From Limonium bicolor (lineage: Eukaryota; Streptophyta; Magnoliopsida; Caryophyllales; Plumbaginaceae), in NCBI GenBank assembly GCA_023374045.1, contig CM041783.1, positions 92,787,298 through 92,851,297 of the forward strand: 64,000 nucleotides of DNA, read 5' to 3'. Below, piece after piece: positions 13,066-63,800 of the stretch (position 1 is its first letter; the number at the start of each line of letters is the position of its first letter). A program made the translations under genes and the position numbers. The notes under the pieces are model-generated. The model made no database searches. It saw nothing but the letters and a program-made list of their open reading frames with translations, and was not told the DNA's origin.

Positions 13066-13354
13066 GTCCGTCCGAACATTGGTCCGACTTCAATGTTCGG
13101 ACACAGTGTTCTGAGCGCTTCAAGTCAGAAAGTTTCGACTTGTGTCCGAACTTGGATGTTCGGACACAAGTTCGGACATGCTCCGTACATCAGACCTCCG
13201 GCTTTTCTTAACCATGTCCGAACTTCGATGTTCGGACCAAAGTTCGGACATTCCATTAGGCGCAGCATACAAACTCTCGACTTGCGTCCGAACTTGGAAG
13301 TTCGGACACAAGCTCGGACATTCCTTCAAAATCCTCTAAATTCACCGTTCGGAC
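13066..13354 (-). repeat. GTCCGAAC/GTTCGGAC hairpin array in the LTR of element B
   Basis: About five units in which GTCCGAAC and GTTCGGAC arms face each other over 5-10 base loops, joined by spacers containing CTTGTG, CGACTTG and similar. The unit at 13275-13319 is almost identical to units in the LTRs of element E. Confidence 0.85.
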
Positions 13355-13567
13355 TCTGATTCGACCCCCGTTTGTTGCATCATCTCCCTTGTGAGTTAAT
13401 CTACTGTTTCCTTGGCTTTTCTCTGCATTTAATCATAGAAAAAGGTATCAAGCCTTACCAAACAACAAACCAAAGGAAAACGGAAGATAAGTGTGGAATA
13501 TTATCGATGTACGTATAAAAATTAGGCATTAAAGATCCCTAAAACCATTCATAATTCACACTCATCA

Positions 13568-13572
13568 GTCGC
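13568..13572. repeat. Target-site duplication right of element B (GTCGC, predicted)
   Basis: Five bases immediately after the B LTR; the matching copy would be left of the window. Confidence 0.4.
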
Positions 13573-16389: not shown

Positions 16390-16615
16390 TGATAAGTGAA
16401 AAACATATAGACTTATTAGGGTTTAATCACCTTATAATTTGTAGCATTATTAGTAATGTTTTTCACTTATCTAGGGTTTTTCCTATAATTATGTTGTTAT
16501 ATTAACTGATGTATTACATGTGTTAAAATGTAGGAAAAATGCCAAATAAACAGATATATTAAAAGGGATTACACGAGCTCACGCGAGAAGCATGCTTTTG
16601 GGCGTGTCTGTCTCT

Positions 16616-16815
16616 GCGACCGCCTGACTATAGGCGGACGAGGTATAGAGGCGACCGCCTGACTATAGGCGGACGAGGTATAGAGGCGACCGCCTGACTT
16701 TAGGCGGACAAGGTAGAGGGCAACCGCCCCATTTTAGGCGGACGAGACAGAGAGGAAACCGCCCCATATTGGGCGGTTGAGATACAGAGGAGACCGCCCA
16801 AGGAACCGCCCTTAA
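16616..16815 (+). repeat. Hairpin array (ACCGCC...GGCGGAC) in solo LTR H
   Basis: At least five units of the form GACCGCCTGACTATAGGCGGA and variants with ATTTT or ATATTG loops. Spacers read CGAGGTATAGAGG and similar. The array lies upstream of the TATA box. Confidence 0.85.
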
Positions 16816-17036
16816 ATGTGTGGACAAACATGCGGACATGTGTAAATTACAGATCTGGAAATTAACGCAATGGGTTATCTTCTTCGCCGACTCTCTGCAA
16901 GATGCCTCCGCCATATCCATTAGCAGACGGCGCCTACCTGAAATCACTCACGCGTTTGTTCCTGTCCCCTGCAATCAATGAGCTGCAATCAACGAGCTCA
17001 ATCAATAAGCTGCAACTCTGCCTCTTCTTCTTCCTC

Positions 17037-17044
17037 TATAAATA
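17037..17044 (+). promoter_or_regulatory. TATA box of solo LTR H
   Basis: TATAAATA in the context CTCTATAAATACCACG, about 220 bp downstream of the hairpin array, matching the layout in element A. Confidence 0.65.
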
Positions 17045-17985
17045 CCACGCTCAATTCACCTTCTCCAGTGTCCTTCCAGAGGTTCCTTCTGTGGTTCCTC
17101 CTGGAGTTCCAATTCACACCATCAATCCATCTTCGTACCACTACACTTTCACTCACTCGTTCATTTCACTTCTAACCTTCTGCTTCTTCATTTGTTTTCT
17201 TTACATCTCGTTATTCTCACCTCTAGTCTCACGTATTTAAATAGAAGATCAAACTATTTAATATGTTAGGCTAGTTTACGTATGCTCTGGGAATAATTAT
17301 TATGTATCTGTATTAATTATGCAATATGTTTTACTGGTTTTAATTTTAATGAAGTTTGTTACGCTTAAAGGTTTTCTCGCTTCTTTTTAATAAATGTCAT
17401 GAGTTTATTAAATTGCTTTACTAAGTCTATTTTGATTAGACCAGGTGATATATAGATACGTTAATTAAGCCGTAAATCTGGAGAAAGCTTATTAGGATTT
17501 AATAAGTTAGTATTTTCAGATGCAAGAATAAAATCCTCATACTCCTCTACCGTCCACCAGTGGGTGCTTGAGTTTTCATCGGACCTTGCACAACTGGAAC
17601 GAGTTCTTATGAGGCTATGATTTAGTCCTTAAGAATAAAAACAGGATCTTGCCAAACAATTATAATTAAACCAGTAGACCTAGCATGAAAGAGCAGATAT
17701 TATATTAACGTGAACCAGAGTCCCGTTTAGTTTATCTGTTAATTTAGTTTATTTAATCTTTCCTTTTTATTTATAAAAACAAGTCAATTAATCCCCCATT
17801 TTTGTGACACGCTTAGGTACTATAATATGTACATTAGTCCCATGGTTCGATATCCGGTCGCTTACATTTTACTATACTACCACGACCGGGATTTTGTTTG
17901 CAGCCCGACGTTTATTTTGAGTTTTAATTTCTTTTCTTTTATGTTAATTTACACCAGTTTAACCACTCATTTTACAACGTCTGCA

Positions 17986-18528: not shown

Positions 18529-18546
18529 TCCCCAGCAGAGTCGCCA
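18529..18546 (-). other. Primer binding site (tRNA-Arg type) of element G
   Basis: Minus strand TGGCGACTCTGCTGGGGA, three bases from the LTR end at 18550. This is the primer site described for Ogre and other Tat-lineage elements, and the same site occurs in element D. Confidence 0.85.
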
Positions 18547-20059: not shown

Positions 20060-20545
20060 GTTGGAAAACAAGGCGGGTCAAAGTTAGACCAAGTCAAAAT
20101 GGGATTGAGTGACAGTTAGGTCAAGGTTAACTTGGGCTGGTCAAAGTTCGGATTGGTCAAAGTTTGGGTCTTGGTCAAATCTTAGGTCATGGTCAAAGTT
20201 TAGTCAAAGGTCACAGTTCAAGTCAAGGTTTGGTCAAAGGGCAACATTCGGGTCAAGGTTTGGTCAAAGGTCAACATTCGGGTCAAGGTTTGGTCAAAGT
20301 TTGGGTCTTGGTCAAAGCTTTAGTCATGGTCAAAGTTTAGTCAAAGGTCAAGGTTTGGTCAAAGCTCAACATTCGGGTCAAGGTTTGGTCAAAGGTCAAC
20401 ATTCGAGTCAAGGTTTGGTCAAAGTTTGACATTTGGGTCAAGGTTTGATTCTCGTGGACTTGCTTGGTTTGTGGACTTTAGTCAAAGTTAAAGGTTCGGT
20501 CAACTCGAGTTGGGTCAAAGGTTCGGGTCAAGGTCAAATCGGTTT
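20060..20545. repeat. Dense W-box-like (RGTCAA / TTGACY) tandem array in G LTR
   Basis: I count about 30 RGTCAA hexamers on the plus strand in under 500 bp, within units such as GGTTTGGTCAAAGGTCAAC. Read in the sense of element G (minus strand) they are TTGAC[CT], the core bound by WRKY transcription factors. A 106-codon open frame here is a by-product of the repeat. Confidence 0.8.
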
Positions 20546-25388: not shown

Positions 25389-25565
25389 TGATAAGCCGCA
25401 GACTTATCAAATTTTATGCATTAGATTTAGTATTATATTATCTAAATAAGGTTAAATATATGTTATATATGCTTATTATGTGTTAAAATATAATATTTGT
25501 ACAGACTTATGTTTTTATGAGTTTTCTGTGCAAGGAATGATTTTCTAGGCAAAAGATCAGTTGAA

Positions 25566-25857
25566 GCCGGACTCCATGCCGGGTAGTTTCTGCACGGCAT
25601 AAGTACAGATTAGAAAAGAGACCTTGCCGGACATGATGCCGGGTAGATCCCATCCGGCATAAGTGAAGAGTCACCACGGTTGACCAGACGATGGCCGTTA
25701 TTGACCGTTGGAGATTTAGCTTGTGCCGGGTGTGATGCCGGGTATCTCCTACCCGGCATAGGCACTGTTTCGCGTGGAATTGACGGTTTCGACCGTTAAC
25801 AGTCGGGCGCATTTATCACGTGTGCCGGCTATTGGTGATCCGGCACGACGCCCGGCA
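25566..25857 (+). repeat. TGCCGG/CCGGCA hairpin array, first cluster, solo LTR I
   Basis: About four units, each GCCGGA or GCCGGG words followed at short distance by CCGGCA, for example TGCCGGGTAGATCCCATCC then GGCATAAG. The last unit ends about 18 bp before the TATA box. Confidence 0.8.
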
Positions 25858-25874
25858 AGAGACATTTTGATGCC

Positions 25875-25882
25875 TATAAATA
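25875..25882 (+). promoter_or_regulatory. TATA box of solo LTR I
   Basis: TATAAATA in GATGCCTATAAATAGGCC, directly downstream of the first hairpin cluster. Confidence 0.7.
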
Positions 25883-26460
25883 GGCCGAGGAAGGCTACAA
25901 TTTGGCACACTTGAACACCATATTATACTCCATTCACATCTCAGTTTCCGCCCCACTCCATCTGTTGGTGTCCAAGGAACGTCAGCAAATCCATCCATTC
26001 AAGAGAAGAAGAAGACCTTGACGGGTTAAGGCTATTAACATTTCCTTCTCCCCCTTTGTATTCTCTTCTTGTAGTTGTGTGGATGGTGATGCAGAATCCT
26101 TGTTAGGTTTTGGTTAGGGATGAACTTCCTTGTAAAACTCTTATGATCATATATGGAATTTACAAGTTTCTTAACGGAGGTTTCTAGTCTTCATGCAAGT
26201 TGAATGAGTCAGCCACTTATTCTCTTATTTATAAGTCCTATTTAAGGCTTTCAAAGCAAGAGTAGGATAGATTAGGATCTCGGTAATCTTTAATATTGTT
26301 GTTCTGAAAAGTGGATAACAAATGCTAAGGTTTTGGATTAATCTCTAATTTCCCCATTATTCTGGTTGCATTCGCGGCATTGGCTATGCACGATGCAAGT
26401 ATGGGTATTGAGTTCCTTAATGCAGATCTGATTCTGGAAGTGGTATTTACGAAATGAACG

Positions 26461-26551
26461 ATGCCGGATGGAATGCCGGATTGGTTTTGCCCGGCACATT
26501 CAAAGAACTTGACTATGCCGGGTAGAGAAGGTCCGGCATGGCACCCGGCAT
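26461..26551 (+). repeat. TGCCGG/CCGGCA array, second cluster, solo LTR I
   Basis: Three to four further units about 580 bp downstream of the TATA box, so this copy would be transcribed. Confidence 0.75.
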
Positions 26552-26898
26552 ATTCATTTTGCGAGAAACAAATCCTCTTTGAGACTTGCCACCCTTGATC
26601 ATTGGTCATACGAACCTTTTGCATTGATAATCTTCCCAAATCAAAGTTAGTTTATTTATTTATTTATTTAGTTTAGGATCACATTTTCAATTCCCCCCTT
26701 GTTATTATAGAATAGGCTTTTGCCCGGATTCGGACTAATTTTCTATAAGTCCCTTGGGTACGATACTCTCGGTCGTAATATATTTACACTATACTCCGAC
26801 CGGGTTTTATTTTGCTACCCGTAGTAGAGTTGTAGGTTTAGTTATTTACTTTATTCTCTTTATATATAGTTTTATCCCTAAAAAAATCTTGTTAGCAA

Positions 26899-31812: not shown

Positions 31813-33346
31813 GCCCCCAAGGGTCTCAGCACCTTTGCTGGTATGGTAATCCCGCAGCCCACATGCTACCGGGCCACGCACAACTAATTGTCGTCTTAGC
31901 ATGCGGTTGATTATATTTATATCATGCATGCAACTGTAAACACACAACACACAACATTTCGCCTCAATGGGCTCAATAAACGGATAATACATCCTTATTT
32001 GTTAAGTCACTCATGGTATTCATTATCCCTAGAGTGTTTCTCCTCTAATGGAGCTACTTCCTTAATAGACGACAACTACCCATTAATCGGGTTACCCTTA
32101 AACGCCTCTTATCACAAACTGGGATTCATATCCATGATCCACATACTCCACATTTTACAACATATAACCTGCATCACATAACAAAACATAACAACACTTT
32201 TCACGTTTCGACGTGCACATAATAACATCGCAATAGAAATTGCATTACAACAACATCACATAACATAACGGGAACGGTCCTCTTAGGAACCGACCCAAAC
32301 ATTGTTAATTCACTGGTGAGCCTAGAGAATGATGTCACCCTCATGATAAGCTCGTTATACAACAACAACACTCATTACCGTCCTAATAGTCGGACGAGTA
32401 ACTTAAGTTAAGATGGTTCGGGTTTGGTGGCCTGAACACACCACACAAACACATGTTCCCCCTAAACCGATCATAAGTCAGAATAACTAAGCTTTGGAAT
32501 AAGCTAATGGGAGATCATAACCCGTGAGGGAAACAACCATAACAGAGAGAAGGGTAAGGCTAAGAAGGATACCCACTCCCAAACAACGCGCGACCGGCCA
32601 AACCGGATTCCTCACCACTGTTAGTACATACTTACTTTTAGATATTAGTTAGAACCCCACTATGGAGCCTATCACATAACAACACTTACTGTATTACAAC
32701 TGGGTTAAACATACAAGGGAGATCCCTACATTCACACACACATATCACACATTTATCACACGCATAGCCGTGGTTAGAACGTCCCATGGTACGGGTCGTT
32801 TAATCCGAATACCGAACTCTCATGTGATCCTAGACTCAGTTAACTAAGGTTAACACTTCCGAGGTTAAATGGTATCGGAGTAGAACACGCCACATAAATG
32901 AATTACTGTAAACTCATTACATGTTTTATCTTACAACGTGGCAAACATACAGAAAAACACATTGGCATACAAGCCGGTGTAATCCGGTAGGACACAGGTT
33001 GCAAGAAAACCATACCTGTCACCGGAGTCCACTTTATCGTGTCCACTTATGTTCCTCGAGCAATTCTCGAACAACTGATAACATTACATGCACTTTTATT
33101 AACATCGGGGTAACATGATTGTTTAAAGTCTAATGCTTATAACTTATCCCCGTTAATTTAGTTATATAACTTCCCATTTTAACTTGTTTTACTTTTACAT
33201 TTTAATACAATTTTTCCTCCACTAAATCACCATTATAACTTACTTAACATGTCCTTAACAATCTTATAACATCATTACTTAATAATCACCATTTTTAGAC
33301 AACTTTTCCTAACCTTATACAACATTTTTGGCCCATACAGTGGCCC

Positions 33347-33593
33347 GTCCGAACTGTGTCCGGACTTCCCAAGTTCGGACGCAAGTCGAGACTCAAAACT
33401 GAAAACAGACGCCTGTCCGAACTTGTGTCCGGACTTCGGAAGTTCGGACATGGGTCGAGAAAATTTCAAAGTAGAAGCAGGTATGTCCGAACTTGTGTCC
33501 GGACTTCCCAAGGTCGGACACAAGTCGAGACTCTGAAAATTTTTACGCAACAGGGCCTATCCGAACGTCCATGTCCGGACGGATGTTCGGACA
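33347..33593 (-). repeat. GTCCGAAC/GTTCGGAC hairpin array in 3' LTR of element E
   Basis: Four units joined by GTCGAG-containing spacers. Each has GTCCGAAC, CTTGTGTCCGGACTT, and AGTTCGGAC words that can pair with each other. Same content as 54449-54695 and closely similar to units in element B. Confidence 0.85.
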
Positions 33594-35245
33594 AGGCAAA
33601 ACACTCATTTTCCAAGCCTTTAAACACTTAACCACTTTCCACCAAAATCTCTAACACGTATAGTATTTCCTCCTTAGGTTTCTAAGTGGTGTTTCATGCC
33701 TATTGTAACCATTATACCATAATATTTCTTCTCCATTTGAACATCCACTCTTAAGCATCTTTTCTTACCACTAAATGCCTTATACCATCCTTGTAGTCCT
33801 TTTACAAGTTCATTCCTTCTCGTTGTTTTCCCAAAGTTTGCCTAAGCCCTAGAACAACTCTGAAATAACTTTGGTGTATCCCAAAACACTCATTTGTTTC
33901 CTAGAACTTCCAAGACAATGTCTAAATCCTTGTAGCACTCTAAACACCTTAATACATGCTTTCTTCCCTAGTAAAACATTTAATCATTCTCAACACTTCC
34001 AAACTCACCAAAACTCTTTTTAAACACTTAGAACTTCTTATACATCATCTAAATTTTGCCATAGGTTCTCTTAGCACAATGTCATACCAAAACACATTGT
34101 TTTTCACCATAAAACATTCAAGAACACCTAAAATCCATCAAGAGTATTCTCACACTCAAACACTTAGGTTTTCACCCTTTTACAACCAAAAACACTTAAT
34201 CACTTAATGCACATTCCTTACACATAAACATATTGTTTTTCCTTCATTAATCATCCAAGACACTCATCTTCACAAAGAATGTTCTTTACACACATCTAAA
34301 TTCTCAAACTACACTACATCACAATATAGTGCATAAACTTAAATTGCTTGGCACTTAGGCCCTTAAATAACATGGCTCTTAGGCCCTTAAATTGCATAAA
34401 CCTTAAACACTGAACTTCCACATAATATATTGCCTTTAACCTACAAATACACTCAACATCACACATGCCCCTAAATAGTTTCCTTGAGAGCATTTTACTA
34501 GGTCATTCACCATTGGCTCCTTAGGTATTTTATTAAGCAAATCAAGCTCATTTTTCCTAAGGCATTTAAACTACATTGAGATAGTTTGTTTACCTCTTTT
34601 CCTCTCAAACTTCTTTCTTGTTTCCTTGAACCGAAAATCAGCAAGGAGTTTGATCACTTGTCAACTTTCTAATCAATATACATATAAGGGTAATGAGCTT
34701 AAGAATTCACACTTAAACTCATATACAAACCCTAGTTTAACATAAGTGTTTTAATACACTAAAATGATATTTACCTTTGAATTTGAAAGAGAACTTGAAT
34801 ATGTAACAAGAGAGGACTCTTCCTTGTCCTTTGAAGATTGAAATGGTGCTATGAAAGAACAAGAGAAGACACCATCAAAGGTGATTCTCGGTTACACACA
34901 AAAACAAGAGGGAATGTTGTTTTTCTTTGATTTTCCTAACCTTGAAGCAAAGGAGAATGTCAAGGCATGAAAAGATGAGCTCAAGCTCCAACAATGGTGA
35001 ATCTTCATGGAACCGAAATGGAGTTCTTGAATATTTGAAAAGACAAGATTGTAGAGCTTTACTAAACTAAGAGGATGGTGGTCTTAGTTTTTGATTTGGC
35101 AAAGGGAGCTAGGAGATATAAAGGTTCAAAGCTTGAAGATGGTGTTTGTGCTGTAGCTTCACCGAAGAAGAAGGGAGGAGAAGATTGAAGACCATGTGAA
35201 ATGAGAAGGAAGGAGGGAAATGAGGAGGAAGCTTACTTTTGGAGA

Positions 35246-35253
35246 TATTTATA
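35246..35253 (-). promoter_or_regulatory. TATA box of element E 3' LTR
   Basis: TATAAATA on the minus strand, in the same context at 56347-56354. The hairpin array lies about 1.6 kb downstream, so it would be within the transcript. Confidence 0.6.
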
Positions 35254-36043
35254 CTTAAAGTAAATAGTAACCTTGCTTTATTACTTTTCTTGTTTATTTG
35301 ATTGGTCAAGTGTGGTGAGTCACACATGAAAAACCGGCCCCTTAATGTTTTAGGCCAAGTCATGGTCTTTGTTGACCAATTAACTTACTTATATTGACTT
35401 ATGTCATAAACTAGCATTTTTTTGTTACTATTCACAAAAACAAGGCACATTCTTGTGAAATTTTTGATTTCCCATTGATTTAGACCTCCAAATGTGATAT
35501 TAAGTAGTACACATGTTAATTAAAGAGTAATGATGGACATTTAGCCATTCAAAACTCATTTACAAGACAATTTTTCAGAAACGTGCTTTAAGACTCCTTA
35601 AAGCACTTTTTGTGTTTTAACTTGTTTTCCAGCTTGGTTTTCTTTGGTAATTGATTTAATATGTTCATTAACATATTTATGAGGTATAGGTATGACCATT
35701 AGGTCTTATACAGATTTATCCCAAGCTTAGAGCACATTTTTGCTCTTATTGACTTTATGGTATTTTCTTGTGTTTTGTTTGGTTTAACTGTCTACCAAAG
35801 TTTCCTAAGGACTTAATTAGCCTTATTACATCATAATTGAATATTATTAAGTCTTGGTAGGCTCTTTGGGTCCTAACCAAATTCACTCCAAGCTTAAAGC
35901 ATGTTTTTGCTCAAACTGTATCTTAGTGCTTTATTGCATTTTACTATGGTTTAAATTGTTCACTAATGTTTCTGAGGCACTTTTTAGCCTTTACATACCA
36001 TAGTTTAATATTTAAACCACATATCAAGGTTTGGGGTATTTCA

Positions 36044-38793: not shown

Positions 38794-39060
38794 CCGTCCG
38801 TGGCCACGGACCTAATGTCCGAACCCACGGACCCTAGTTAACCTATATGAAAATAAAAGTCGAATTAAACAGAAAACAGAAAGTTGTAAAGTCCGGGGCC
38901 ACGGACAGGACGTCCGTGGGCCCGGACATTATTAGAAAAACCTAAATTTTTAAAATTTAAAAATCTCGCCGCCGTCCGTGGGCGTCCGGGCTTACGGACA
39001 AGGAGTCCGGGACCCCGGACATGACGTCCGTGGGTGCGGACCGCCCTCGGACGGCGGCGT
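38794..39060 (-). repeat. GTCCGTGG/CCACGGAC hairpin array in 3' LTR of element D
   Basis: About six GTCCG words alternate with CGGAC words: CCGTCCGTGGCCACGGAC is a near-perfect palindrome at the left end, then CCACGGACAGGACGTCCGTGG, and others. Loops are short. Located about 0.6-0.8 kb downstream of the TATA box in element sense. Confidence 0.85.
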
Positions 39061-39635: not shown

Positions 39636-39643
39636 CTTATATA
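39636..39643 (-). promoter_or_regulatory. TATA box of element D 3' LTR
   Basis: TATATAAG on the minus strand, conserved at 46635-46642 in the 5' LTR. Confidence 0.6.
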
Positions 39644-45341: not shown

Positions 45342-45359
45342 TCCCCAGCAGAGTCGCCA
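45342..45359 (-). other. Primer binding site (tRNA-Arg type) of element D
   Basis: Minus strand TGGCGACTCTGCTGGGGA, three bases from the LTR end at 45363. Confidence 0.9.
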
Positions 45360-45791
45360 GTCTGTGAGCCTCGATTTTAAACCCTATCCTATGTGGATTA
45401 AGTTGATTGGGATCTAGTCGGGTTTTAGGTCCACTTATAACCTAAGATTAATAACTATGTCATAAAAACAATAATTATTAAAACCTAAGCTAGCTCACTG
45501 GAACCTATTATGAGTCGCCACCTAATTTTAACCTAGATCAAATTAGGAAAGGAGAGTTCGGGTTCGGGGGCTTGATATTCGACTTATTTAGGGTTCAATT
45601 ACTTTCATTACCCTTCCTAGGTCGTTTTTCCTCTACTTGGTTTATTTACGGCTTATTACGAGTCGTTTTAACCTAAGTGCGCGAGCTTCTACTTTTTTTG
45701 TGTTTTTTAGCATTTTTTGACAGAAAGTTAAAGTGAACTTAAAAGCTACCTAAACTAGGGTTTCGGAGGCAGAATTAGGTCAAATTTTTAT

Positions 45792-46059
45792 GCCGTCCGT
45801 GGCCACGGACCTAATGTCCGAACCCACGGACCCTAGTTAACCTATATGAAAATAAAAGTCGAATTAAACAGAAAACAGAAAGTTGTAAAGTCCGGGGCCA
45901 CGGACAGGACGTCCGTGGGCCCGGTCATTATTAGAAAAACCTAAATTTTTAAAATTTAAAAATCTCGCCGCCGTCCGTGGGCGTCTGGGCTTACGGACAA
46001 GGAGTCCGGGACCCCGGACATGACGTCCGTGGGTGCGGACCGCCCTCGGACGGCGGCGT
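45792..46059 (-). repeat. GTCCGTGG/CCACGGAC hairpin array in 5' LTR of element D
   Basis: Second copy of the array at 38794-39060, with a few single-base differences. Confidence 0.85.
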
Positions 46060-46634
46060 TAAGGCTGTTCCCGAAGGTGTTTTCGACTCAAATTTTATGG
46101 GTGTGTAGCCTGAAAGATGTACAAGACGTTAGTGATTTAAAGTTTTCAATTTGAGTTCGAATTAAGCACGAAACTTAGTAAACAAGTTATTGGACAGAAG
46201 CTTAAACAAACAGCAATACAGAAGCGTACGAAGGTTAGTTTGAGCCCAAAATTTGACAGAGAGCTAATAAGGTCGTGGGAAATTAGAAAAGTAGAGTTGC
46301 AACCTGTTTTACCTTCGAATTCAAGGTGATTCTTCACACCGGGATTCGTCGAGTGCTTCGTTGATGGCAGACCCGAAAGGATTTCGAACCAAGCTTTTGG
46401 TTGTTGGTTGTTCTTGCTGTTCTTCACGTTTTGGTGGTGTTTTTGTGGGGTTTTGATGACTATTGATGCTTTGGGGATTGGAAAACGTGTTTAGATGGTG
46501 ATTTCGGGGGATTTTCGGTATGATTTGGGTGGCCTGGTGTTGGAAAACGTGAGAGAGAGTGAGGAGGCTGTGTTTTCTGATTCTCTAGGGTTCTTCAGCA
46601 TATGAGGTCCTTCTTTTATCCAAAAACCTATCCC

Positions 46635-46642
46635 CTTATATA
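46635..46642 (-). promoter_or_regulatory. TATA box of element D 5' LTR
   Basis: TATATAAG on the minus strand, as in the 3' LTR. Confidence 0.6.
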
Positions 46643-47796
46643 GACTTTCTTAAAGATAAAGAAAATCTAGTAAAAGTAAGATTTTTCGATATTTTAGTTA
46701 AGTGACTTCCCAAAGGAATTTGCTGTGAAATTTTAACCACGTGTCAAGGATGGATATTATGAATTTTCTGAGGTGGAACCGAATTTTTTTGAATATTGGA
46801 ATATTTTTAAATTGAGTTTCTCGTCAGATTCAGTCAGAAATTGCTAGAAAATTATTGGAATTTCGAAAAATCAAAATTCCAACGCCATTATGCTTAAAAT
46901 GTCATCCTCTATCATGGGTTAAAATATCAAAGCATTTCAAGCTGATTTGGGCATCCTTTGGAGGAGAGAGAAAGCTTACAAGAGGTTAAGCCTTTAATTA
47001 CCAAAACGCCCCTGAAATTGACGAACTGCTCCCCATGAGGCATGGAATGCCCGATCGGCCGGGATCCCTCACCGCTTGATTAAAATGCCTCTCACAACCC
47101 AGTACCTCCTACTTCGTAACCCTAACTAGGGGGTCAAATTTTGGTATAACACCCCACCGGCACTCCCTAAATGAAGTTCATGTACTCTAAGAAGTGTGAA
47201 AATTAAGTTGTGTATGTTATAAAGTAAAGTGTGTTGTTTGTTGATGTGCTAACCTTGTGTATGTATTCTATTAATGTGTTTGCTTACAAGCATGATATGT
47301 GTGTGAGTTTGTGCATGTTTGAAATAAATCAACCGCATGCTAAGACGACAAATAGTTGTGCGTGGCCCGGTAGCATGCGGGCTGCGGGATTACCATACCA
47401 GCAAAGGTGCTGACCCCCTTTGGGGGCTCCCATACTTTCAGGTACAAGGAACTAGAAGCCGTTCGAGAGTAGGACGGGGTAGTTGACTGTACGTGGTAGT
47501 CGTGTAAATTATGTAAGTATTGTAGGTGTAGTAAGACCGAAATTGTATCGGCGTTAGTTGGGGAATACTCGGTACCGTTGTAATGTAAGTGTATAACAAT
47601 TGTTGGATATGGAACGGGAGTATTGTGTAGTTGCTCGGGAGTTTAGTCCATCAGACCGGTATGATGTATGTATGTTAGCCTTGTTAGTCACGTAGGTGGC
47701 TAACGGCGTGTAACACCAAGGAGTTAAGTTATGTTGTGAGTTATGATTTCCGCTGCAAGGGTTGTTAAATGTGTTGTTTGTAGTTGGGGTGTTACA

Positions 47797-50800: not shown

Positions 50801-52526
50801 AACATTTCCTGATAGTGTAGGTACTCATTCTGGAGTTTCATCCCGTTCATGCACACTATGTGTCCACATTAGGCATCTGCTTAGCCATGGACAGGCTGGG
50901 GTCACCGGTTCACCTTACATGTTTATCCCTGAGGATCCTTAAGACGTATATGATGTCTTTACATACAGTTAGTGCACTTCGCACCTCCTGACTCTTAAGC
51001 ATTTCGTTTGAAAGGAATTCACTAATTCCTTTAGTCTCGTTAACTTAACTAGGTTCCTTTACTTCAACCATTCATGGTAATCTTAGCTGTTGTGTTGACT
51101 TATACTGCTGACCGTAGAACGGAGTCGACTACTTCCGTGTTCTGGATCTACTCGTATACATATGTGGGGGTACCATGCTGGTTACATTGCTACTTACCCA
51201 AAACTAACCCATAAGTAGATCTGTCAGGCCACAAGCTCCTACGGAGTGCGGTCGTCCCACATTACAGTTGGTACACTCGTAGTGTCCGTCACACGCCTAG
51301 GTGAAGTATTCTGTTGTCAACCCTTATATATGGTCCTGTGACAATATTCATTCTGTGCTTCCCGAACTTAATCGAGGGAAAGTTTATCCACTGTTGTATC
51401 TTTATCAACTGCCCTTGGTTTTACTGGTTTGGTTTAGAAGAAGGTTAGAAATAAATATTGGTTTGGAAGAAAATCTGGTTTTGAAGGAAAAGAGTTTGAA
51501 ATAAATCTGAGTTTGAAAGAAAATTTTCATGGTTTCAAACAACTCTTACCTTAACCAAGTCTAGCTTCTTGACGACTTTGTACTTACAATTACAGAGGTT
51601 AGGCTAACAGGCCCTTCCACTGTTATGACGATCACATTTAACTTTATGGTACTTTACCAAGTACTTTGTAGTGGTATAAATTTCCGAACAGCCCTGTTAT
51701 AGCAGCACTTGCTATAGCAAGTGCGCCATGCTAACTGGCTATCGGTTCAACACATAACGGTTGTGGTATTGTTTTTGCCCGCACTGTCATCAGTGACCTT
51801 GGGCCCTCACTGATCCTACATTCTTGACAATTAACCCTCTGCGTGACTTCTCACTGTATTCACATGATAATTATTAACTGGGGGGTCTCCCATTCTTGGA
51901 GACCCCTTTTTACTTAGTATTGTTCCTCTTCGTAGCCCGTTCCACGCATTTGTCGTGGTCACTCAGACTGTCTCTTGTTTGGGCATACGTTGTAGTTCCC
52001 TTGTCGGTTTGGTATACCGTTGGTGTATCATTTAACAACTGTGGTTCCGTAGACACTGTCTCGGTTTCATTAATCCACTTCTTGCCTGTTGCACGGTCGG
52101 TGCGTTTGCAAGCTGGTTATCCTCGACTGCTCGGCATGTGACCCAGGTTGCCGGAATTCTATTCTTCTATACACTGATTCTTCACTCTTCGCTATGAAAT
52201 GCGGTTAACATTGTTTAGATGGGAACCGTCTCCGGGATTCCCAGTTTTCGGGATCTACCGTATGACAGGTTCTCCGTACCTTTAGAGGTGTTTAATAACA
52301 GCCAGATGGGTATTCCCGAGTAAGAGGACTTCCATCTCTCTGGCGTTCCTTCCCAAGTTATAAAACAGGGGGTGGAGGGCGGGAAGGATATAGTAGGTTT
52401 CAGTACACACTGGTTACTCCTAACTAGCGTATCTCTCACGCTATCACTCAACCCTTAACCCAAAGTACTAAAATCCTAACTCGGTACTTCCTAAGCTCGG
52501 TAATTCAGTCATCAGAGCGATACTTC
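47802..52526 (-). other. Non-coding interior of element E
   Basis: About 4.7 kb without recognisable gag or pol. The left part (47840-48100) has three to five loose ~60-bp repeats around ACTTGATAACCTCGGACTCA and ACACATAGGTCTATGTAAC. A second polypurine-like tract (plus CTACCCCCCTTAAAAGG) lies at 49041-49057. The rest has AT-balanced unique sequence with only short frames. Confidence 0.6.
49041..49057 (-). other. Second polypurine-like tract inside element E
   Basis: Minus strand CCTTTTAAGGGGGGTAG, close to the true tract at 36044-36060 but not followed by an LTR start. In E without nested insertions it would lie about 1.3 kb from the 3' LTR. Confidence 0.55.
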
Positions 52527-52538
52527 GCTCTGATACCA
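52527..52538 (-). other. Primer binding site (initiator tRNA-Met) of element E
   Basis: Minus strand TGGTATCAGAGC, followed by GAAGTATC, five bases from the LTR end. Confidence 0.88.
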
Positions 52539-54448
52539 CTTTTTGTAACACCCCATCCAACAATAAACACATAACAACATTCTGCAGCGGAAAATATACT
52601 ACTTCACATTAATTAACTCGTTGGTGTTACACGCCGTTAACCACCCACGTGGCTAACAAGGCTATTACATAAACATTGTACCGCTCTGATGGACTAGATT
52701 CCCGAGTGACTATACATTATTATCCCTTTCCATTAACAACAAAACATACACCTACCTTCCAACTGTACCGAGTATTTATGAACTGATGCCGATAACAATC
52801 TCGGTCTTACTACACCTACAGTACATATACAATTTAAATGATTACCATGTACAACATCTACCCCGTCCTACTCTCGAACGGCTTCCAGCTCTATGTACCT
52901 GAAATAGGAAAAGAAGGAGAAAGGGTGGCCCCCAAGGGGCTCAGCACCTTTGCTGGTATGGTAATCCGCAGCTCACATGCTACGGGCCACGCACAACTAA
53001 TTGTCGTCTTAGCATGCGGTTGATTATATTTAAATCATGCATGCAACTGTAAACACACAAACACACAACATTTCGCCTCAATGGGCTCAATAAACGGATA
53101 ATAATCCTTATTGTTAAGTCACTCATGGTATTCATTATCCCTAGAGTGTTTCTCCTCTAATGGAGCTACTTCCTTAATAGACGACAACTACCCATTAATC
53201 GGGTTACCCTTAAACGCCTCTTATCACAAACTGGGATTCATATCCATGATCCACATACTCCACATTTTACAACATATAACCTGCATCACATAACAAAACA
53301 TAACAACACTTTCACGTTTCGACGTGCACATAATAACATCGCAATAGAAATTGCATTACAACAACATCACATAACATAACGGGAAAGGTCCTCTTAGGAA
53401 CCGACCCAAACATTGTTAATTCACTGGTGAGCCTAGAGAATGATGTCACCCTCATGATAAGCTCGTTATACAACAACAACACTCATTACCGTCCTAATAG
53501 TCGGACGAGTAACTTAAGTTAAGATGGTTCGGGTTGGTGGCCCGAACACACCACACAACAATGTTCCCCCTAAACCGATTCATAAGTCAGAATAGCTAAG
53601 CTTTGGAATAAGCTAATGGAGATCATAACCGTGAGGGAAACAACCATAATAGAGATAAGAGTAAGGCTAAGAAGGCTACCCACTCCCAAACAACGCGCGA
53701 CCGGCCAAACCAGATCCTACCACTGTTAGTACATACTTACTTTTAGATATTAGTTAGAACCCACTATGGAGCCTATCACATAACAACACATACAGTATTA
53801 CAACTGGGTTAAACATACAAGGGAGATCCCTACATTCACACCACATATCACACATTATCACACGCATAGCCGTGGTTAGAACGTCCCATGGTACGGGTCA
53901 TTTAATCCGAATACCGAACTCTCATGTGATCCTAGACTCAGTTAACTAAGGTTAACACTTCCGAGGTTAAATGGTATCGGAGTAGAACACGCCACATAAA
54001 TGAATTACTGTAAACTCATTACATGTTTTATCTTACAACGTGGCAAACATACAGAAAAACACAGGGCATACAAGCCCGGTGTAATCCGGTAGTGACAGGT
54101 TGCAAGAAAACCATATCTGTCACAGGAGTCCACTTTATCGTGTCCACTTATGTTCCTCGAGCAATTCTCGAACAACTGATAACATTACATGTACTTTTAT
54201 TAACATCGGGGTAACATGATTGTTTAAAGTCTAATGCTTATAACTTATCCCCGTTAATTTAGTTATATAACTTCCCATTTTAACTTGTTTTACTTTTACA
54301 TTTTAATACAATTTTTCCTCCACTAAATCACCGTTGTAACTTACTTAACATGTCCTTAACAATCTTATAACATCATTACTTAATAATCACCATTTTTTAG
54401 ACAACTTTTCCTAACCTTATACAACATTTTTGGCCCATACAGTCGCCC

Positions 54449-54695
54449 GTCCGAACTTGTGTCCGGACTTCCCAAGTTCGGACGCAAGTCGAGACTCAAA
54501 ACTGAAAACAAACACATGTCCGAACTTTTGTCCGGACTTCGGAAGTTTGGACATGGGTCGAGAAAATTTCAAAGTAGAAGCAGGTACGTCCGAACTTGTG
54601 TCCGGACTTCACAAGGTCGGACACAAGTCGAGACTCTGAAAATTTTTACGCAACAGTGCCTGTCCGAACGTCCATGTCCGGACGGATGTTCGGAC
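54449..54695 (-). repeat. GTCCGAAC/GTTCGGAC hairpin array in 5' LTR of element E
   Basis: Four units as in the other LTR. The unit at 54449-54494 is the one nearly identical, in reverse, to 13275-13319 in element B. Confidence 0.88.
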
Positions 54696-56346
54696 AAGAC
54701 AAAACACTCATTTTCCAAGCCTTTAAACACTTAACCACTTTCCACCAAAATCTCTAACACTTATAGTATTTCCTCCTTAGGTTTCTAAGTGGTGTTTCAT
54801 GCCTATTGTAACCATTATACCATAATATTTCTTCTCCATTTGAACATCCACTCTTAAGCATCTTTTCTTACCACTAAATGCCTTATACCATCCTTGTAGT
54901 CCTTTTACAAGTTCATTCCTTCTCGTTGTTTTCCCAAAGTTTGTCTAAGCCCTAGAACAACTCCGAAATAACTTTGGTGTATCCCAAAACACTCATTTGA
55001 TTCCTAGAACTTCCAAGACAATGTCTAAATCCTTGTAGCACTCTAAACACCTTAAACATGCTTTCTTCCCTAGTAAAACATTTAATCATTCTCAACACTT
55101 CCAAACTCACCAAAACTCTTTTTAAACACTTAGAACTTCTTATACATCATCTAAATTTTGCCATAGGTTCTCTTAGCACAATGTCATACCAAACACATTG
55201 TTTTTCACCATAAAACATTCAAGAACACCTAAAATCCATCAAGTGTATTCTCACACTCAAACACTTAGGTTTTCACCCTTTTACAACCAAAAACACTTAA
55301 TCACTTAATGCACATTCCTTACACATAAACATATTGTTTTTCCTTCATTAATCATCCAAGACACTCATCTTCACAAAGAATGTTCTTTACACACATCTAA
55401 ATTCTCAAACTACACTACATCACAATATAGTGCATAAACTTAAATTGCTTGGCACTTAGGCCCTTAAATAACATGGCTCTTAGGCCCTTAAATTGCATAA
55501 ACCTTAAACACAGAATTTCCACATAATATATTGCCTTTGACCTGCAAATACACTCAACATCACATATGCCCCTTAATAGTTTCCTTGAGAGCATTTTACT
55601 AGGTCATTCACCATTGACCCCTTAGCTATTTTATTAAGCAAATCAAGCTCATTTTTCCTAAGGCATTTAAACTACATTGAGATAGTTTGTTTACCTTGTT
55701 TCCTCTCAAACTTCTTTCTTGTTTCCTTGAACCGAAAATCAGCAAGGAGTTTGATCACTTGTCAACTTTCTAATCAATATACATATAAGGGTAATGAGCT
55801 TAAGAATTCACACTTAAACTCATAGACAAACCCTAGTTTAACATAAGTGTTTTAATACACTAAAATGATATTTACCTTTGAATTTGAAAGAGAACTTGAA
55901 TATGTAACAAGAGAGGACTCCTCCTTGTCCCTTGAAGATTGAAATGGTGCTATGAAAGAGCAAGAGAAGACACCACCAAAGGTGATTCTCGGTTACACAC
56001 AAAAACAAGAGGGAATGTTGTTTTTCTTTGATTTTCCTTACCTTGAAGCAAAGGAGAATGACAAGGCATGAAAAGGTGAGCTCAAGCTCCAACAATGGTG
56101 AATCTTCATGGCACCGAAATGGAGTTCTTGAAGATTTGAAAAGACAAGATTGTAGAGCTTGACTAAACTAAGAGGATGGTGGTCTTAGTTTTTTTTTTGG
56201 CAAAGGGAGCTAGGAGATATAAAGGTTCAAAGCTTGAAGATGGTGTTTGTGCTGTAGCTTCACCGAAGAACAAGGGAGGAGAAGATTGAAGACCATGTGA
56301 AATGAGAAGGAAGGAAGGAAATGAGGAGGAAGCTTACTTTTGGAGA

Positions 56347-56354
56347 TATTTATA
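56347..56354 (-). promoter_or_regulatory. TATA box of element E 5' LTR
   Basis: TATAAATA on the minus strand, conserved in the 3' LTR. Confidence 0.6.
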
Positions 56355-57866
56355 CTTAAAGTAAATAGTAACCTTGCTTTATTACTTTTCTTGTTTATTT
56401 GATTGGTCAAGTGTGGTGAGTCACACATGAAAAACCGGCCCCTTAATGTTTTAGGCCAAGTCATGGTCTTTGTTGACCAATTAACTTACTTATATTGACT
56501 TATGTCATAAACTAGCATTTTTTTGTTACTATTCACAAAAATAAGGCACATTCTTGTGAAATTTTTGATTTCCCATTGATTTAGACCTCCAAATGTGATA
56601 CTAAGTAGTACACATGTTAATTAAAGAGTAATGATGGACATTTAGCCATTCAAAACTCATTTACAAGACAATTTTTCAGAAACGTGCTTTAAGACTCCTT
56701 AAAGCACTTTTTGTGTTTTAACTTGTTTTCCAGCTTGGTTTTCTTTGGTAATTGATTTAATATGTTCATTAACATATTTATAAGGTATAGGTATGACCAT
56801 TAGGTCTTATACAGATTTATCCCAAGCTTAGAGCACATTTTTGCTCTTATTGACTTTAAGGTATTTTCTTGTGTTTTGTTTGGTTTAACTGTCTACCAAA
56901 GTTTCCTAAGGACTTAATTAGCCTTATTAAATCATAATTGAATACTATTAAGTCTTGGTAGGCTCTTTGGTACCTAACCAAGTTCACTCCAAGCTTAAAG
57001 CATGTTTTTGCTCAAACTGTATCTTAGTGCTTTATTGCATTTTACAATGGTTTAAATTGTTCACTGATGTTTCTAAGGCACTTTTTAGCCTTTACATACC
57101 ATAGTTTAATATTTAAACCACATATCAAGGTTTGGTGTATTTCAAATTATATAAGGCTAACATGTTGCAATAATGGATTAAGTAAATATTTACATGAATT
57201 AAGGTTTCAATGAACCTCAATTATATTTATAAAATAAATATATAGTCTAAAAAGATTTATCAAACCTAACATGAAATTCTAAATTAAGGGGTTTCCTGAT
57301 GAACTCGACAAATCTGGGCGTCCGACTGTAGTTAGGAGAAACAGACGGTCGAGATTATAACGTAGATGATTAAGTAATATAAATCCCAGAATAAAACTCT
57401 AACTTGTTGGATTTATTTAATACCCTTCCCTAATGTATTTTTACTTGACATTTTAACCATAGATTCCTTATAAACTATAGTGTATTTTCATGTAAATTAA
57501 TATGGGTTTTGATTTTAAACGTAAGTTATAATTTTTGTAAGTTTCAAGTATTATAGAATAATTTAGATAATTTAAAAAGATATTTTTATGAAATAAAATT
57601 TTTATAATATGTCTAAAATATCGTAGTTACTATACAATAAATTTGGGAATTTTTAGACAAGAGTAAATGGGTCTAAAAATTGTGTTTATTAATTTTTCAT
57701 AAGTTATCTTTGTAATATATGGTTTTAAATGTAACCAAAAATTTAAAGTATAGTGGATTAACGAACTTTATAGGTTGGGGAAAATATAATAAGACTAAAA
57801 TAACATTAAATACAGAATTTTAATAAATACTTTTGGCTATAAACTTTTAAGTGAAGTAATTATAAT

Positions 57867-58491: not shown

Positions 58492-60891
58492 TGAAATACC
58501 CCAAACTAATAAAACATGGATTAAATATCTAATCACATTAATTAAGGCCTAAACATGCCTTAAAAGTCAACTGAGAACAACAGTGGTCAACACAAATCAA
58601 GATGTTGCACCCTTTGACTGTCTAGGGTAAATAAATACCCAAATGAACTTCTTAGGACCTAAAAATTTTTCCTAAGTTTATTAACATAATATTAAACATA
58701 TTATAATTGTTGGACAACACTCCAACACAAAGAACAAGCATTTACATGCTTCAAGGTCAAAAAGGACAAAAATGTGCTCTAAGAATACCTTAAAGTTCTA
58801 ATGACCTCTAAATGATATAAAATTGGATATCATGATCAAATATCATGTAAGGAACACAACAAAACCGTTGTCAAAGAAAACCAAGCTCAGAAACACTTGC
58901 GACACAAAATGTGCACTAAAACTCCTTAAAGCACATTTTTGTGTAATTGCCTTCTAAATTGGTTTTAAATGGGCTAAAAGGTTATAAATACCTTTAAATA
59001 TGATAAAATATCATATTATATCATATTAGGAATTTAATTCCAAGAATTTACAAATTTTTACAAATTTAATATTAAAATATTAATAAAACCCTAAAGTGGG
59101 GCCCGTTTGGGTCAACATTGACTAAGTTGGTCAATGTTGACCATTGACCACGAATTGGACTACATAAAATCGGTGGAATAAGTCTCTTAACAGATCAAGA
59201 GACAAGTCCCATGTGACAATTAAATAAACCTCATTACTTTTACATAAAATAAAGAAAAGGCATACTTTAACATATTAAACTTAAAGTTGTCTACCATTTG
59301 CTTACCCCATGTGAAGAGCCAGCCGATTTTGGAGCCTCTCTTCCTCCTTGTTACACGGTGTTCCAAGCAAGAACAAGACAAGAGTGGTGAGTCACCTATT
59401 CATTAATTGATTAAAGTAACATTAACATTTCATTATTGAATCAAATAAGCACAAATAATTCACCCACCTTTCCTATCATGGCCGGCTGCCTCCTTGCTTT
59501 GTCTCCACCGAATTAATCAACTACAATCAACCTTGATGAGTCATCAAGTCATTAAAATCATAAAAAATGCAAAAAATGACTTTAAGGTCAATTTAGGTCA
59601 TTCTTCCTCATTTGCTCCATTCAGCCGAGTTTACTCCTTGCTTTGAACTCTCTTTGGCTCCTCTCAACCGTAGGTAAGTGTCCAAGCTCCATTGATGAGA
59701 GCTCAAGCTCTAGGTAAGCTCTTAAGGCATAAAAATGCCCATTTTCTTCATCTTTCTTTCCTTTTTTCATTGATCTAGACTCCAACCTTTTTTATACATC
59801 TATTTAGAGTGATTTGGAGGTTAAAGGAAGAATAAATTTCGGCCATAACAAGATCTATGGAGAAAAGTTCAAGTCTTGACCATTTAAGGTAAAAATGTGC
59901 TCCAAGCACATATCTTTTCTTCCTTGTTGATTTCGGTTGTAAACCTTGGTTCCCTAGCCTTATTTTCTTCTCCTTTTCATGTGGATTCAGTTGGTATACC
60001 AAGATCTACAAGGAGTAGCTTGATCCAAGCCAAAAACACCATTTTTGGCATCTTAAACAAGGTAAATCGTAGCCATCTTCCAAGCTAATTACCCACGGTT
60101 TTATACCTTGTTTTTAAGAGTGTTTTGATACTCTTTCTTTACTGGAAAAATAGGGCCGAGACATATCTATAACAAGCTTGAGGATCTAAGGTAAAAATTC
60201 ATGATTTTCATGACTTAAATTACTTCTCATGGTTAGCTCATGTTTGGAGTTTAATCATGTCTTGTTTTCTACATGAAGACAAGTAAATCAAGCTGTGGAG
60301 AATTTCTCCTTAAGGTGGCGAACCAAACAAGGCTCTACCTAAGTTAAATCAAGGTATAACTCACTTAAAACCTTAACTTGATACATTAACACAAGTTTAA
60401 GCTTGTGTATATTAATTGTCGTAAGTGAATGAGTAAAATAATGTCATGTTTGACCTTTAAATGATTAAGGAATGGTTTAATAAATTTTATAACTAATTAA
60501 ACAAGCATAATTGTCAAATTTAAGACATTATGTGGAAGTTTCGTAATTAAATGGAAAATACATGGTGAGGCCGAGATCTATATGTATTTTTGGGACATTT
60601 ATGTGTAATTTATTTTGTGAGCAAATGTTTGTAATAAGGCCATGTACTGTAGGCCATTTTATTTATGCATTTACAAGCTTTTATTTAAGTTTAAGTGGTA
60701 GAAATGCATTACCGAAATGAGTAAGGGGTTAAAGTGTAATTAAATTAAATTTAGGGGCTTTATAAAAATAAGGCCAAAAATTTGAGGTTAAAAGGAGTTA
60801 AATGGTGATTTCTAGAAAGTATGGGTGCGAACCGTAATTATTAGGAATTGATGGTCATGGAAATATTAAGGAGGTCAACCTTGACCATATG
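58492..60891 (+). mobile_element. LTR J, same broad family as F and E, interrupted by LTR K
   Basis: Starts TGAAATACCCCAAACTAATA, sharing the first 15 bases with F and E. It runs without a matching TGTTACA end up to 60891, where LTR K begins. It includes a dense palindromic W-box cluster at 59110-59152 and no hairpin array. It could be a solo LTR or part of a full element continuing outside the window. Confidence 0.6.
59110..59152. repeat. Cluster of five W-box-like words in LTR J
   Basis: GGTCAAC, TTGACTA, GGTCAATG, TTGACC and TTGACC in about 43 bp, on both strands. Confidence 0.65.
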
Positions 60892-63800
60892 TGTAACACC
60901 CCTACTACGCACTTAACACTACTTGAAATCGCAGCGGAATTTAGACAACTAAACAGTAACTAAACGAATGGTGCTACAACGCCGTCAACCACCCACGTGG
61001 TTAACAAGGCTGAATAAATACAAGTGTACCGGTCTGATGATCAGACTCCCGAGCATAGAACTAATAACCATATATATACATTAGCAAAATACCGAGTGTT
61101 TACATACATCCATCACTGTGAAACATCACCGTAAACCATCACTGTAAACCGTTCATAACCAAATACATAACGCCACGGGAGCACAGGCGCATCCCGGGCC
61201 AACATCCAAAAGTAATCAAAAGTAAACCTGCAACCTAGAATCTAAAGCCATTCCGCTTCTTCGATCCTCATCTGCAGTAAAAGAAATATGGAGCCCCCGA
61301 GGGGGTCAGCAACCCTTGGCTGGTATGGTTAACGCGCAGCCCATCGGCTACCGGGATGCGCGCAAACTAATTGTCATGATGACATGGCATTCATTTTAAG
61401 ACACACAGCTTATACATATATAACATAACATGGGTATTGCACACAACATCACACACATCACACAAGAACAATTCCTTTTAGGAAGAGAACCAACACAGTT
61501 AGTCCCCATTGAGAGCCTAGAGAATGTTGCCATGCTCATACTAAGCTCGTTACATAACTCGTTACCGTCTTGTTAGATTGAACGAATAACTTAACACAAG
61601 GTGCCTCGGATATAGTGATCCAAGCCCACCGAAATAACACATAGTATGCCCCTATGGCCCGACGTGAGTCAGTAAAATAGCCTTGGTTAAGCTAAAGGGA
61701 AGGTTGGAAACCAAATTGGAAAACAACCATAACATACAAAGAGAATCAAACCGGTTATGACATCGACTCCCATACTCACACGCGTGGCCGGAACAGACCG
61801 GACTCCTCACTTCCCCCATTAGCACTTGTCAGCAGTTCATTATTGAACACAATACACAAATCACAATAATAGGTCAAGTTTTGTTAGACACACACAAGGG
61901 AAGAGAGAGTCATACTTAACAACATAATAATATTTAACAACTGTAAACTCTTTACATGGTTTAATCTTACAAAGTCATAAACACACAGAAAAACAAGCAA
62001 CACACAAGCCGGTGTAAACCGGTAGGCAACAGACTGCAAGAAAACCATACCTTGGTCCTTGCCTCGATTGATTTCCTCCGTAGGTCACTCCTATACACGA
62101 TTAATAACGTCGGTTATTTATTTATTTAACTCCAACTTATTAAATGTTTAACACGATTGTATGACATGTTTTTAATGTCTAACTTACCCTAGGTTACCTC
62201 ATTTTACCCCTTAAGGTTAACTACATAAGTCACATTCTTTGTTTATTATTTTTTTTATAAGTTTTGGTCTGTCCGACCCACCGTCCGACCCACAACTGGG
62301 TCGGACCCTTCCAGTGGTTTTCGGGTCTGAAGAAAAAACTTACCTTGTCCAACCCATGTCCGACCCACCCTTCTGGGTCGGACCATTCCAGAGAATTTTA
62401 TCGACCTTTGAACATACATGTCCGACCCATGTCCGACTCACTCGACTGGGTCGGACCATTACAAAACTCTTACCGCCTTACAAAACACGCCCGTCCGACC
62501 CACTTCCGACTCACTCGACTGGGTCGGACCATTCCAGAACATTTTCCGTCCTTCAAAACATGACCGTCCGACCCATGTCCGACCCAAGTCCTCTGGGTCG
62601 GACCGTTCCAGAACAATTTCCTGTCGTCTAACAGAGGCTGTCCGACCCAAACTTGGGTCGGACCCCTGGGTCGGACGCCATCTAAACTTGCCCAAACTTT
62701 GTCAAATCTTCACCAAACTTCTCCTAAAGCCTCTTAGTGTTTCCTAACAACATTTGGTACACTTATGTCCACATACAACATCCATGAAACTCATTATCTA
62801 TCACCTTAAACACTTACTCATTTCATACCGAAATTCCTAACACTTATGTTATTTCCTCCTTAGTTTTCCAAGTGATGTTTCATACCTATGATAGCTACTA
62901 TCCCCAAAATGCTTTCTCCTCATTTCAACATCATCTCCCAAGCATCATTTCTTACCATCTAAACCCTAGTTGATGTCTAAGTCCCTTTGTTTACCTAGAA
63001 CACCTTAAGACATTATTTCTCCTCTTGTAAAGTACTTAAGCATTTCCAACATTTCTAGTTCACCAAGCCTTATATAAACACTTAGAACTTCTTGCTTCTC
63101 TACCTAAATTTTGACATGGATTCTCCTAGAACATTACTAAGCCAAAACACATTGTTTTCTCTCCATCAGTACACAAGAACACCTAAATTCACCAAGAACA
63201 CTCTCACACACAAAGTTTCACCAATTTACACTACATCACAATATTGTGCATAATTAAATTGCATGGCACTTAGGCCCTTAAAATGCATGGCTCTTAGGCC
63301 CTTAAAGTGCATAACTCTTAAACACTGAATTTCCATAATATATGCCTTTGACCTGCGAATACATACAGCAAGACATATGTTCTTTTACTAGTCTCCTTGA
63401 GAACATTTCACTAGGTCATTTACCATTTGCTCTTTAGGTAGTTTTAACAAGCATTATAAGCTCATTTCTCCTAAGGCATTAAACTACATTAGGTTAGTAT
63501 TTTTACCTTTTTTCCACATAACTTCTTTCTTGTTTCCTTAGTAAACCGGTAAGGTATTTGATTCCTTGTCAACTACTAAACAATATACAAACATTGAAAT
63601 GAGTATACAAGCTCCAAGCTTAAATCATTGTAAACCCTAGTTTTACATTGTTTCAAAAACATTAATGTAGTTGTTTTACCTTGGTCTTTGAAGAGAGTTT
63701 GAATATCTATGAAGAGAGGACACCACCTAGTCCTTGAAAGGTTGGAATGAAGCTAAAACAAAGCCATATAAAGAGCACCTTCAATGGGTATTTTCGGTCA

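Follow-up and report, generated by a model that had tools for sequence, protein, structure and literature searches.

In a 64-kb window of the 2.92-Gb genome of Limonium bicolor (contig CM041783.1, positions 92,787,298 to 92,851,297), which is rich in nested long terminal repeat (LTR) retrotransposons, the LTRs of several element families, here called A, B, D, E, H, I and K, carried arrays of short inverted repeats with CCG/CGG as their common core. On balance, we lean towards reading these arrays as regulatory binding sites for one or more multimeric DNA-binding factors that recognize CCG and are probably encoded by the host. A preliminary description of the window had listed the arrays and had proposed that they form RNA hairpins, feed small interfering RNA production, bind a factor, or act as CpG-dense silencing or anti-silencing sites. 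Of these proposals, factor binding fits best; hairpins do fold in silico in the B and D arrays, and the small RNA option stays.

Inverted repeats were present in all 11 stretches listed, and the coordinates were accurate. On the plus strand, the arrays of A were located at 195..412 in the 5' LTR (A5; words ACCGCC and GGCGGA(T); LTR cut by the window start) and at 6256..6486 in the 3' LTR (A3; LTR about 5985-7525), followed by H at 16616..16815 with the word ACCGCC, I1 at 25566..25857 with the word TGCCGG in four units of three half-sites, and I2 at 26461..26551 with two such units. On the minus strand, B was found at 13066..13354 (word GTCCGAACTT; LTR about 11963-13565, boundary approximate), and E at 33347..33593 in the 3' LTR (E3; LTR 31813-36044, word GTCCGAACTT) and 54449..54695 in the 5' LTR (E5; LTR about 52540-57145). 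D was a GTCCG/CGGAC ladder with 16 sites at 38794..39060 in the 3' LTR (D3; LTR 38363-40158) and 14 sites at 45792..46059 in the 5' LTR (D5; LTR 45362-47151). Finally, K at 62271..62676 was built on GTCCGACCCA, in an LTR that is related to E and cut by the window end.

The arrays were compared with 1000 dinucleotide shuffles each, scored by pairs and by coverage, with arms of at least 7 bp. Eight of the 11 arrays beat all shuffles. For I2, one shuffle in 1000 was as good by pairs and two by coverage; for A5, the numbers were 95 and 33, and A3 was not significant (252 of 1000 as good). When A5, A3, H and I2 were retested with 6-bp arms, the first three beat 1000 of 1000 shuffles, and I2 was equalled by 3 (pairs) and 0 (coverage); A and H need such arms to stand out. 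Furthermore, a motif-blind scan of the 64 kb, with arms of at least 7 bp that had at least 4 G/C and lay at most 40 bp apart, gave eight peaks, namely A5, B, I1, E5, D5, D3, E3 and K, all of them previously listed. A3, H and I2 remained below its threshold, no peak appeared elsewhere in the window, and shuffled windows gave 0-2 peaks each. The GC content of the arrays was 0.49-0.60 compared with 0.41 for the whole window, and the observed-to-expected CpG ratio was 0.83-1.42 compared with 0.68. The words CGGAC or GTCCG, said to occur in every array, were indeed found in all 11, but the I arrays, whose repeated word is TGCCGG, held only three in all. Likewise, the claim of four or more units per array did not hold for I2.

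Beyond the window, 20 other 10-kb stretches (200 kb; outside sequences are labelled L0xx here), chosen non-randomly at round coordinates, contained 13 arrays, compared with 0-1 per 200 kb in 20 rounds of shuffled 500-bp blocks. Twelve of the 13 were CCG/CGG-cored with highly varied words, and two lacked both CGGAC and GTCCG. The arrays were not limited to this locus: 40 copies each of the B and D arrays were scored, with 95-100% identity for B (from 3144 candidates) and 97-100% for D (from 1111), window copies included. The sole outside array without a CCG basis, L029 4398-4481, was built on AGGATCG / CGATCCT. A further word, GGACCGCCCC with GGGGCGGTCC partners, was seen in E-related LTRs at L030 2716-3425 and in L042 from about 2600-2694 onward, the latter additionally carrying a GACCGACCTT array. 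Long AACCGCCGA...TCGGCGGTT palindromes were observed at L035 9344-9640, where the surrounding DNA matched none of the window LTRs.

The spacing of the half-sites was measured between CCG cores. For CCG cores on the same strand, counted with no family word, 12 bp was the top distance in both data sets, which share some families: outside, 94 pairs, found in 16 of the 20 stretches, against 19.8 ± 4.9, and within the window 36, against 8.6 ± 3.0. From CCG to CGG, the peak distances were 16 and 13 bp for the outside sample, and 13, 28 and 15 bp for the window. Moreover, the triple CCG-12-CCG-16-CGG was counted 36 times, where the mean per cell was 1.1. All six I units showed this order or its mirror; in five of them the words were exact, and in the sixth two words deviated by one letter. 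The B units had spacings of 12 and 17 three times and of 16 and 12 once; E had 12, plus extra overlapping sites; K had 11-13 and 17-20; H had 15 and 19-20; and A had mainly 15 and 18-19, with some of 8 and 12-13. The spacings of D alternated between 10 and 11 bp, and its sites fitted a 10.45-bp period that none of 5000 random placements equalled in D5 or D3 (jittered, 1 and 0 of 5000). The K sites fitted a 10.50-bp period, with 1 and 96 of 5000 as good. A single helical period for all arrays was rejected, as it held in D5, D3 and K but failed in E5 and B among the five tested. In an array-wise test of 19 arrays from the window and outside, an excess at 11-13 bp (p < 0.06) was obtained in 11: I1, I2, B, E5, K, L035a, L039a, L039b, L041, L042 and L048. 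The 12-bp spacing was accordingly rejected as universal, being not significant in A, H, D5, L031, L033, L035b, L036 and L038.

The position of the arrays was similar in four of the LTRs. The arrays of A, H, B and I start about 177-271 bp into the LTR and end about 1040-1170 bp before its end, as computed with an approximate boundary for B. The LTR ends of A, H and B resemble one another, and I was grouped with them only through its TGATAAG start and its size. The D array lies deeper, about 1.1 kb into the LTR, and that of E at about 2.45 kb. TATA-like boxes followed at 615..621 (TATATAA, plus; 203 bp past the A5 array, 179-203 bp for A overall), 13006..13012 (TATTTAA, minus; 53 bp past the B array in sense), 17037..17043 (TATAAAT, plus; 222 bp past H) and 25875..25881 (TATAAAT, plus; 18 bp past I1). 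In addition, two relatives (L039a and L039c) had TATAAA 14 and 17 bp past the array. The A and H boxes alone are weak evidence because TATAWAW is expected here 0.23 times per 230 bp per strand. The arrays probably lie before the transcription start.

The shared design had been described for families with three different primer sites, which was borne out by the primer sites, the shuffle-tested arrays and the CCG core. Using patterns for the respective tRNAs, sites for tRNA-Asp were matched in A (1501..1518, plus, 18/18) and B (11944..11961, minus, 18/18), for tRNA-Arg in D (45342..45359, minus, 18/18) and for initiator Met in E (52525..52538, minus, 13/14); the same search showed none for H, I or K. 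From the primer sites and LTR ends, membership of the Athila, Tat and Tekay lineages might be presumed. Pfam domains included Retrotrans_gag and an aspartyl protease in A, and gag, RVT_1 and RNase H in B. A, B and D are not Copia Sireviruses, as indicated by the Gypsy-type gag in A and B, the RVT_1 and RNase H of B, and the Asp or Arg primer sites in all three. The gag of A had a top protein match of 77% identity, and Humulus lupulus proteins gave 36-39%. Across 20 translated window frames, gag, protease, reverse transcriptase, RNase H, integrase-type and other polyprotein domains were found, and most window elements were broken or without an intact frame.

That the arrays lie in LTRs was correct, except that those of I are outside the LTRs belonging to the element around them. 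The latter is a Copia element (RVT_2, Pol_BBD) with 235-bp LTRs, in which the blind scan gave no array. I is a solo LTR (about 25389..26897, plus) inserted in the Copia reverse transcriptase with a 5-bp duplication, ACGTT; its ends, TATA box and duplication ruled out that its arrays are subterminal repeats of a CACTA element. A second solo LTR is H (16390..17985, plus), with the 5-bp duplication ACCAC. About 5.5 kb to the left of the window, at C8:92781486-92781773, there is another B-type array with the orientation of B, possibly marking the partner LTR of B, and A may sit inside B. Between its LTRs, D held two tandem-repeat blocks at 40280-40730 and 41131-41586, with steps of about 46 and 37 bp; the only match from a reading frame spanning the second block was a weak one to ribosomal S15, below the cut-off. 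A different array of possible factor sites, tandem GGTCAAAG-type repeats at 20138-20447, was observed within an element that has an exact tRNA-Arg site (18529-18546, minus). We take these repeats, which read TTTGACC on the opposite strand, to be W-box-like. WRKY factors are reported to bind W-boxes of the EVADE LTR (PMC12786077).

Sequence comparison indicates that the arrays behave as cassettes, since related LTRs carry different half-site words in the same slot. The LTRs of E and K matched at 68-83% in pieces flanking the array on both sides, and not at all within it. L035 and L041 matched E (71-81%) up to 10-13 bp from the array on both sides, yet carried GACCG-type words. Among the best 40 of 4427 candidate matches to the downstream flank of E, eight ended at base 544 or 570 of 587, and all six of these that were examined had other cassettes: GTCCGACCCA in L061-L064 and GACCGACCCA in L065-L066. 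Of the twelve best E-flank matches, two being the window's own LTRs, 11 carried the cassette of E, and the twelfth, L057, was truncated after 56 bp. Replacement of the array only was rejected for L061-L066, as they were 94-96% identical to E downstream and 72-74% upstream; they are mosaic LTRs. In L031, an A-type flank (83% over 136 bp) adjoined a GTCCGG cassette, with a match on that side only.

Furthermore, the Asp-primed B and the Met-primed E appear to share one cassette in opposite orientation. The B array in antisense and the E array in sense gave one collinear alignment (272 columns at 72%; for E5, 193 at 75%), whereas sense against sense gave short matches only, and the rest of the B LTR had no match to E. 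The alignment score was reached by 1 of 300 spacer shuffles for E3 and 10 of 300 for E5, and the spacer identity by 32 and 6, respectively. The spacer similarity was therefore weak, and single units gave mixed support. Descent of B from E unit by unit was not upheld: in eight comparisons the collinear unit was best in three, tied in two and not best in three, in part because end units had been cut short. Movement of the cassette between lineages seems likelier than a strong shared constraint that mimics descent. Two comparable cases come from other plants. The Tnt1 U3 variants of Nicotiana (Copia) reportedly show rapid change of regulatory repeats within a single family, in which we know of no CCG grammar. 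In the Ty3 elements Quinta and Cereba of einkorn, the LTRs share the promoter half and differ wholly upstream, in a part thought to be acquired elsewhere; they have a 162-bp nucleosome-linked motif, and the accessible text mentions no CCG palindromes (PMC11302176).

The half-sites changed in concert in one pair of arrays. K and L041 were collinear, with 87% identity along an alignment of 370 bases that spans array and flank, and 13 of the 20 half-sites called in K aligned to L041 without gaps. At half-site position 2, T was replaced by A in six of the ten sites having T, compared with seven changes over the other nine positions (binomial p 0.0009, a value that treats changes as independent, an assumption which duplication within the array may break). 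Variants were then compared among 11 copies of E and 28 of B, both picked as best matches. Per column, half-sites had fewer variants shared by at least two copies than the other positions did (E, p 0.009; B, p 0.025), and singletons were not depleted there in either family. The pooled ratio of shared to singleton variants was 12:39 in half-sites and 85:117 elsewhere (p 0.016; E alone, 0.018). When all variable columns were counted, cores were less variable in E (non-CpG, p 0.007, one row counted twice) and in D (p 0.039, three sequences). These variants modestly suggest constraint on active lineages together with decay after insertion.

The statement that known Gypsy biology does not explain the arrays should be seen beside the closely similar architecture published for the Copia Sireviruses. 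The search, which covered titles and abstract openings with the subscription literature mostly outside its reach, gave no report of arrays of this kind from Ty3/Gypsy LTRs. The repeated motifs described by Bousios et al. (2010; PMC2829016) were reported as specific to Sireviruses, with none in the classic Copia elements used for comparison. Like the window arrays, these are palindromic, family-specific words with CGG-CCG cores, clustered in the LTR and CpG-dense; they lie before a TATA box, as some of the arrays here may. The word classes GT-CCG, GA-CCG, TG-CCG and TA-CCG are common to both, the first two being the commonest among the 12 CCG-holding words of the 13 published (PMC2829016). The order differs: by our count from Table 3, CGG precedes CCG at 7-9 bp in Sireviruses, whereas here CCG precedes CGG at 13-17 or 28-30 bp. 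Direct repeats at 12 bp or a ladder of 10.5 bp also set the arrays here apart, as does their location in LTRs of Gypsy type. The Sirevirus cluster lies 200-400 bp into the LTR, against about 177-271 bp for A, H, I and B and greater depths for D and E, and its TATA box follows after a mean of 37 bp (PMC2829016), compared with 18 bp in I, 53 bp in B and the longer distances in A and H. As far as our search tells, the occurrence in several Gypsy-type groups, the spacing grammar, the cassette differences in one slot with inverted sharing between lineages, and the coordinated recoding are new here.

In the favoured explanation, each array would be a cis-regulatory cassette of the LTR, composed of CCG-core half-sites with family-specific flanking letters and sitting before the TATA box in families with a clear one. 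A CCG-reading dimer or larger multimer would bind the double-stranded DNA, its subunits seated by direct spacings of 12 bp and inverted ones of 13-17 and 28-30 bp, or by the 10.5-bp ladder, and would recruit transcription, hold silencing off the LTR, or both. The half-site words would diverge in concert, and LTRs would swap cassettes by recombination. Factor binding fits best because the 12-bp and helical spacings, the three half-sites per unit and the concerted word changes concern sequence and not pairing. The arrays, their spacings, the cassette differences and, in one pair, the concerted change were observed directly, whereas protein binding, a host origin of the reader and an effect on transcription are inferred. 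A host protein family is the more likely reader, because three Gypsy-type groups and the published Copia Sireviruses use the same word classes. The array words resemble what we take to be the ERF/DREB (ACCGAC) and ARF (TGTC) cores.

Several results weigh against this explanation. No known factor was matched, and the entries listed in a literature search on LOB-domain motifs gave no matching motif. The TATA evidence was weak in A, H, E and K, and D had no TATA box near the array. E and B lacked a helical period, and the 12-bp spacing was not significant in eight of 19 arrays. The depletion of shared variants was not significant in B alone (p 0.30) or in either family without CpG columns, and, over all variable columns, the half-site cores of B were more variable than the rest (p 0.004). 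In addition, double changes at paired positions numbered 10 against 2.9 expected, as RNA pairing or the copying of palindromic units would give.

In the main rival, which we consider unlikely, the palindromes would form hairpins in RNA transcribed across the LTR, and small RNAs derived from them would silence the family, a mechanism that has been proposed for the LTRs of maize Sireviruses. Folding of two arrays, B and D, gave z values of -7.8 and -7.6, with none of 200 shuffles as good; such a fold is what clusters of palindromes would produce. The excess of double changes also speaks for pairing, as does the small RNA excess reported at Sirevirus palindrome clusters in maize (PMC10760457). 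In that survey, the microRNA-like structures of transposable elements had LTR palindromes with CGGAC/GTCCG, as here, and the same motif occurred in Helitrons; they were seen in Copia LTRs, whereas Ty3 elements, unlike those here, were generally without an obvious peak (PMC10760457). However, the words and not the pairing were kept: 71 changes were pair-breaking and 8 were paired, and of 81 position pairs with a change, 71 had lost their match. The three half-sites of an I unit are not fully pairable in a stem, and neither the helical ladder of D and K nor the 12-bp spacing plays a part in one. Moreover, pairing does not need one word to be kept across all units of an array.

It is more doubtful that the element itself encodes a protein that reads the array and counters silencing, like VANC of the VANDAL transposons. 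The targets of VANC are arrays of short non-coding motifs that diverge together and are recognized by sequence-specific readers (PMC5735166), and concerted change was also found here. The VANC motifs, in DNA transposons, have a single orientation (PMC5735166), whereas the arrays here hold both. Against such a reader, one word class extends over the Asp-, Arg- and Met-primed families and the published Copia elements, with no known extra gene in common, and the Pfam domains in the 20 window frames were of retrotransposon type, apart from the sub-cut-off ribosomal S15 match, in a search that was not aimed at VANC-like genes. The least probable alternative is a functionless by-product of palindrome-prone, GC-rich tandem duplication in a fast-evolving, recombining part of the LTR, which would account for the mosaic LTRs with joins near the array, the unit numbers differing among copies and the 33-35-bp period of A and H, typical of duplication, but not for the CCG core shared by all but one of the 13 outside arrays, the preferred spacings, the words kept while spacers diverge, or the similar slot in four LTRs.

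Beyond the binding of factors, it is conceivable, though we hold this only tentatively, that both superfamilies of plant LTR elements share a DNA 'address code', consisting of a CCG core, a preceding GT, GA, TG or TA and a family tail, read by diversified host proteins at fixed helical spacings. An element could acquire a new address through concerted recoding or an exchange of whole cassettes with another lineage, inverted ones included, and control of its activity might then shift to a different host reader.

Large plant genomes are filled with retrotransposons, and for few families is it known what activates their promoters or spares them from silencing. Should Sireviruses and the Gypsy groups primed by Asp, Arg and Met all be served by one family of CCG-reading factors, a general controller could be found by a single biochemical experiment. 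By extrapolation from 13 arrays in 200 hand-picked kb (about one per 15 kb), the genome may hold on the order of 10^5 arrays. Such a number would be a large sink for DNA-binding proteins and a store of ready-made promoters near genes.

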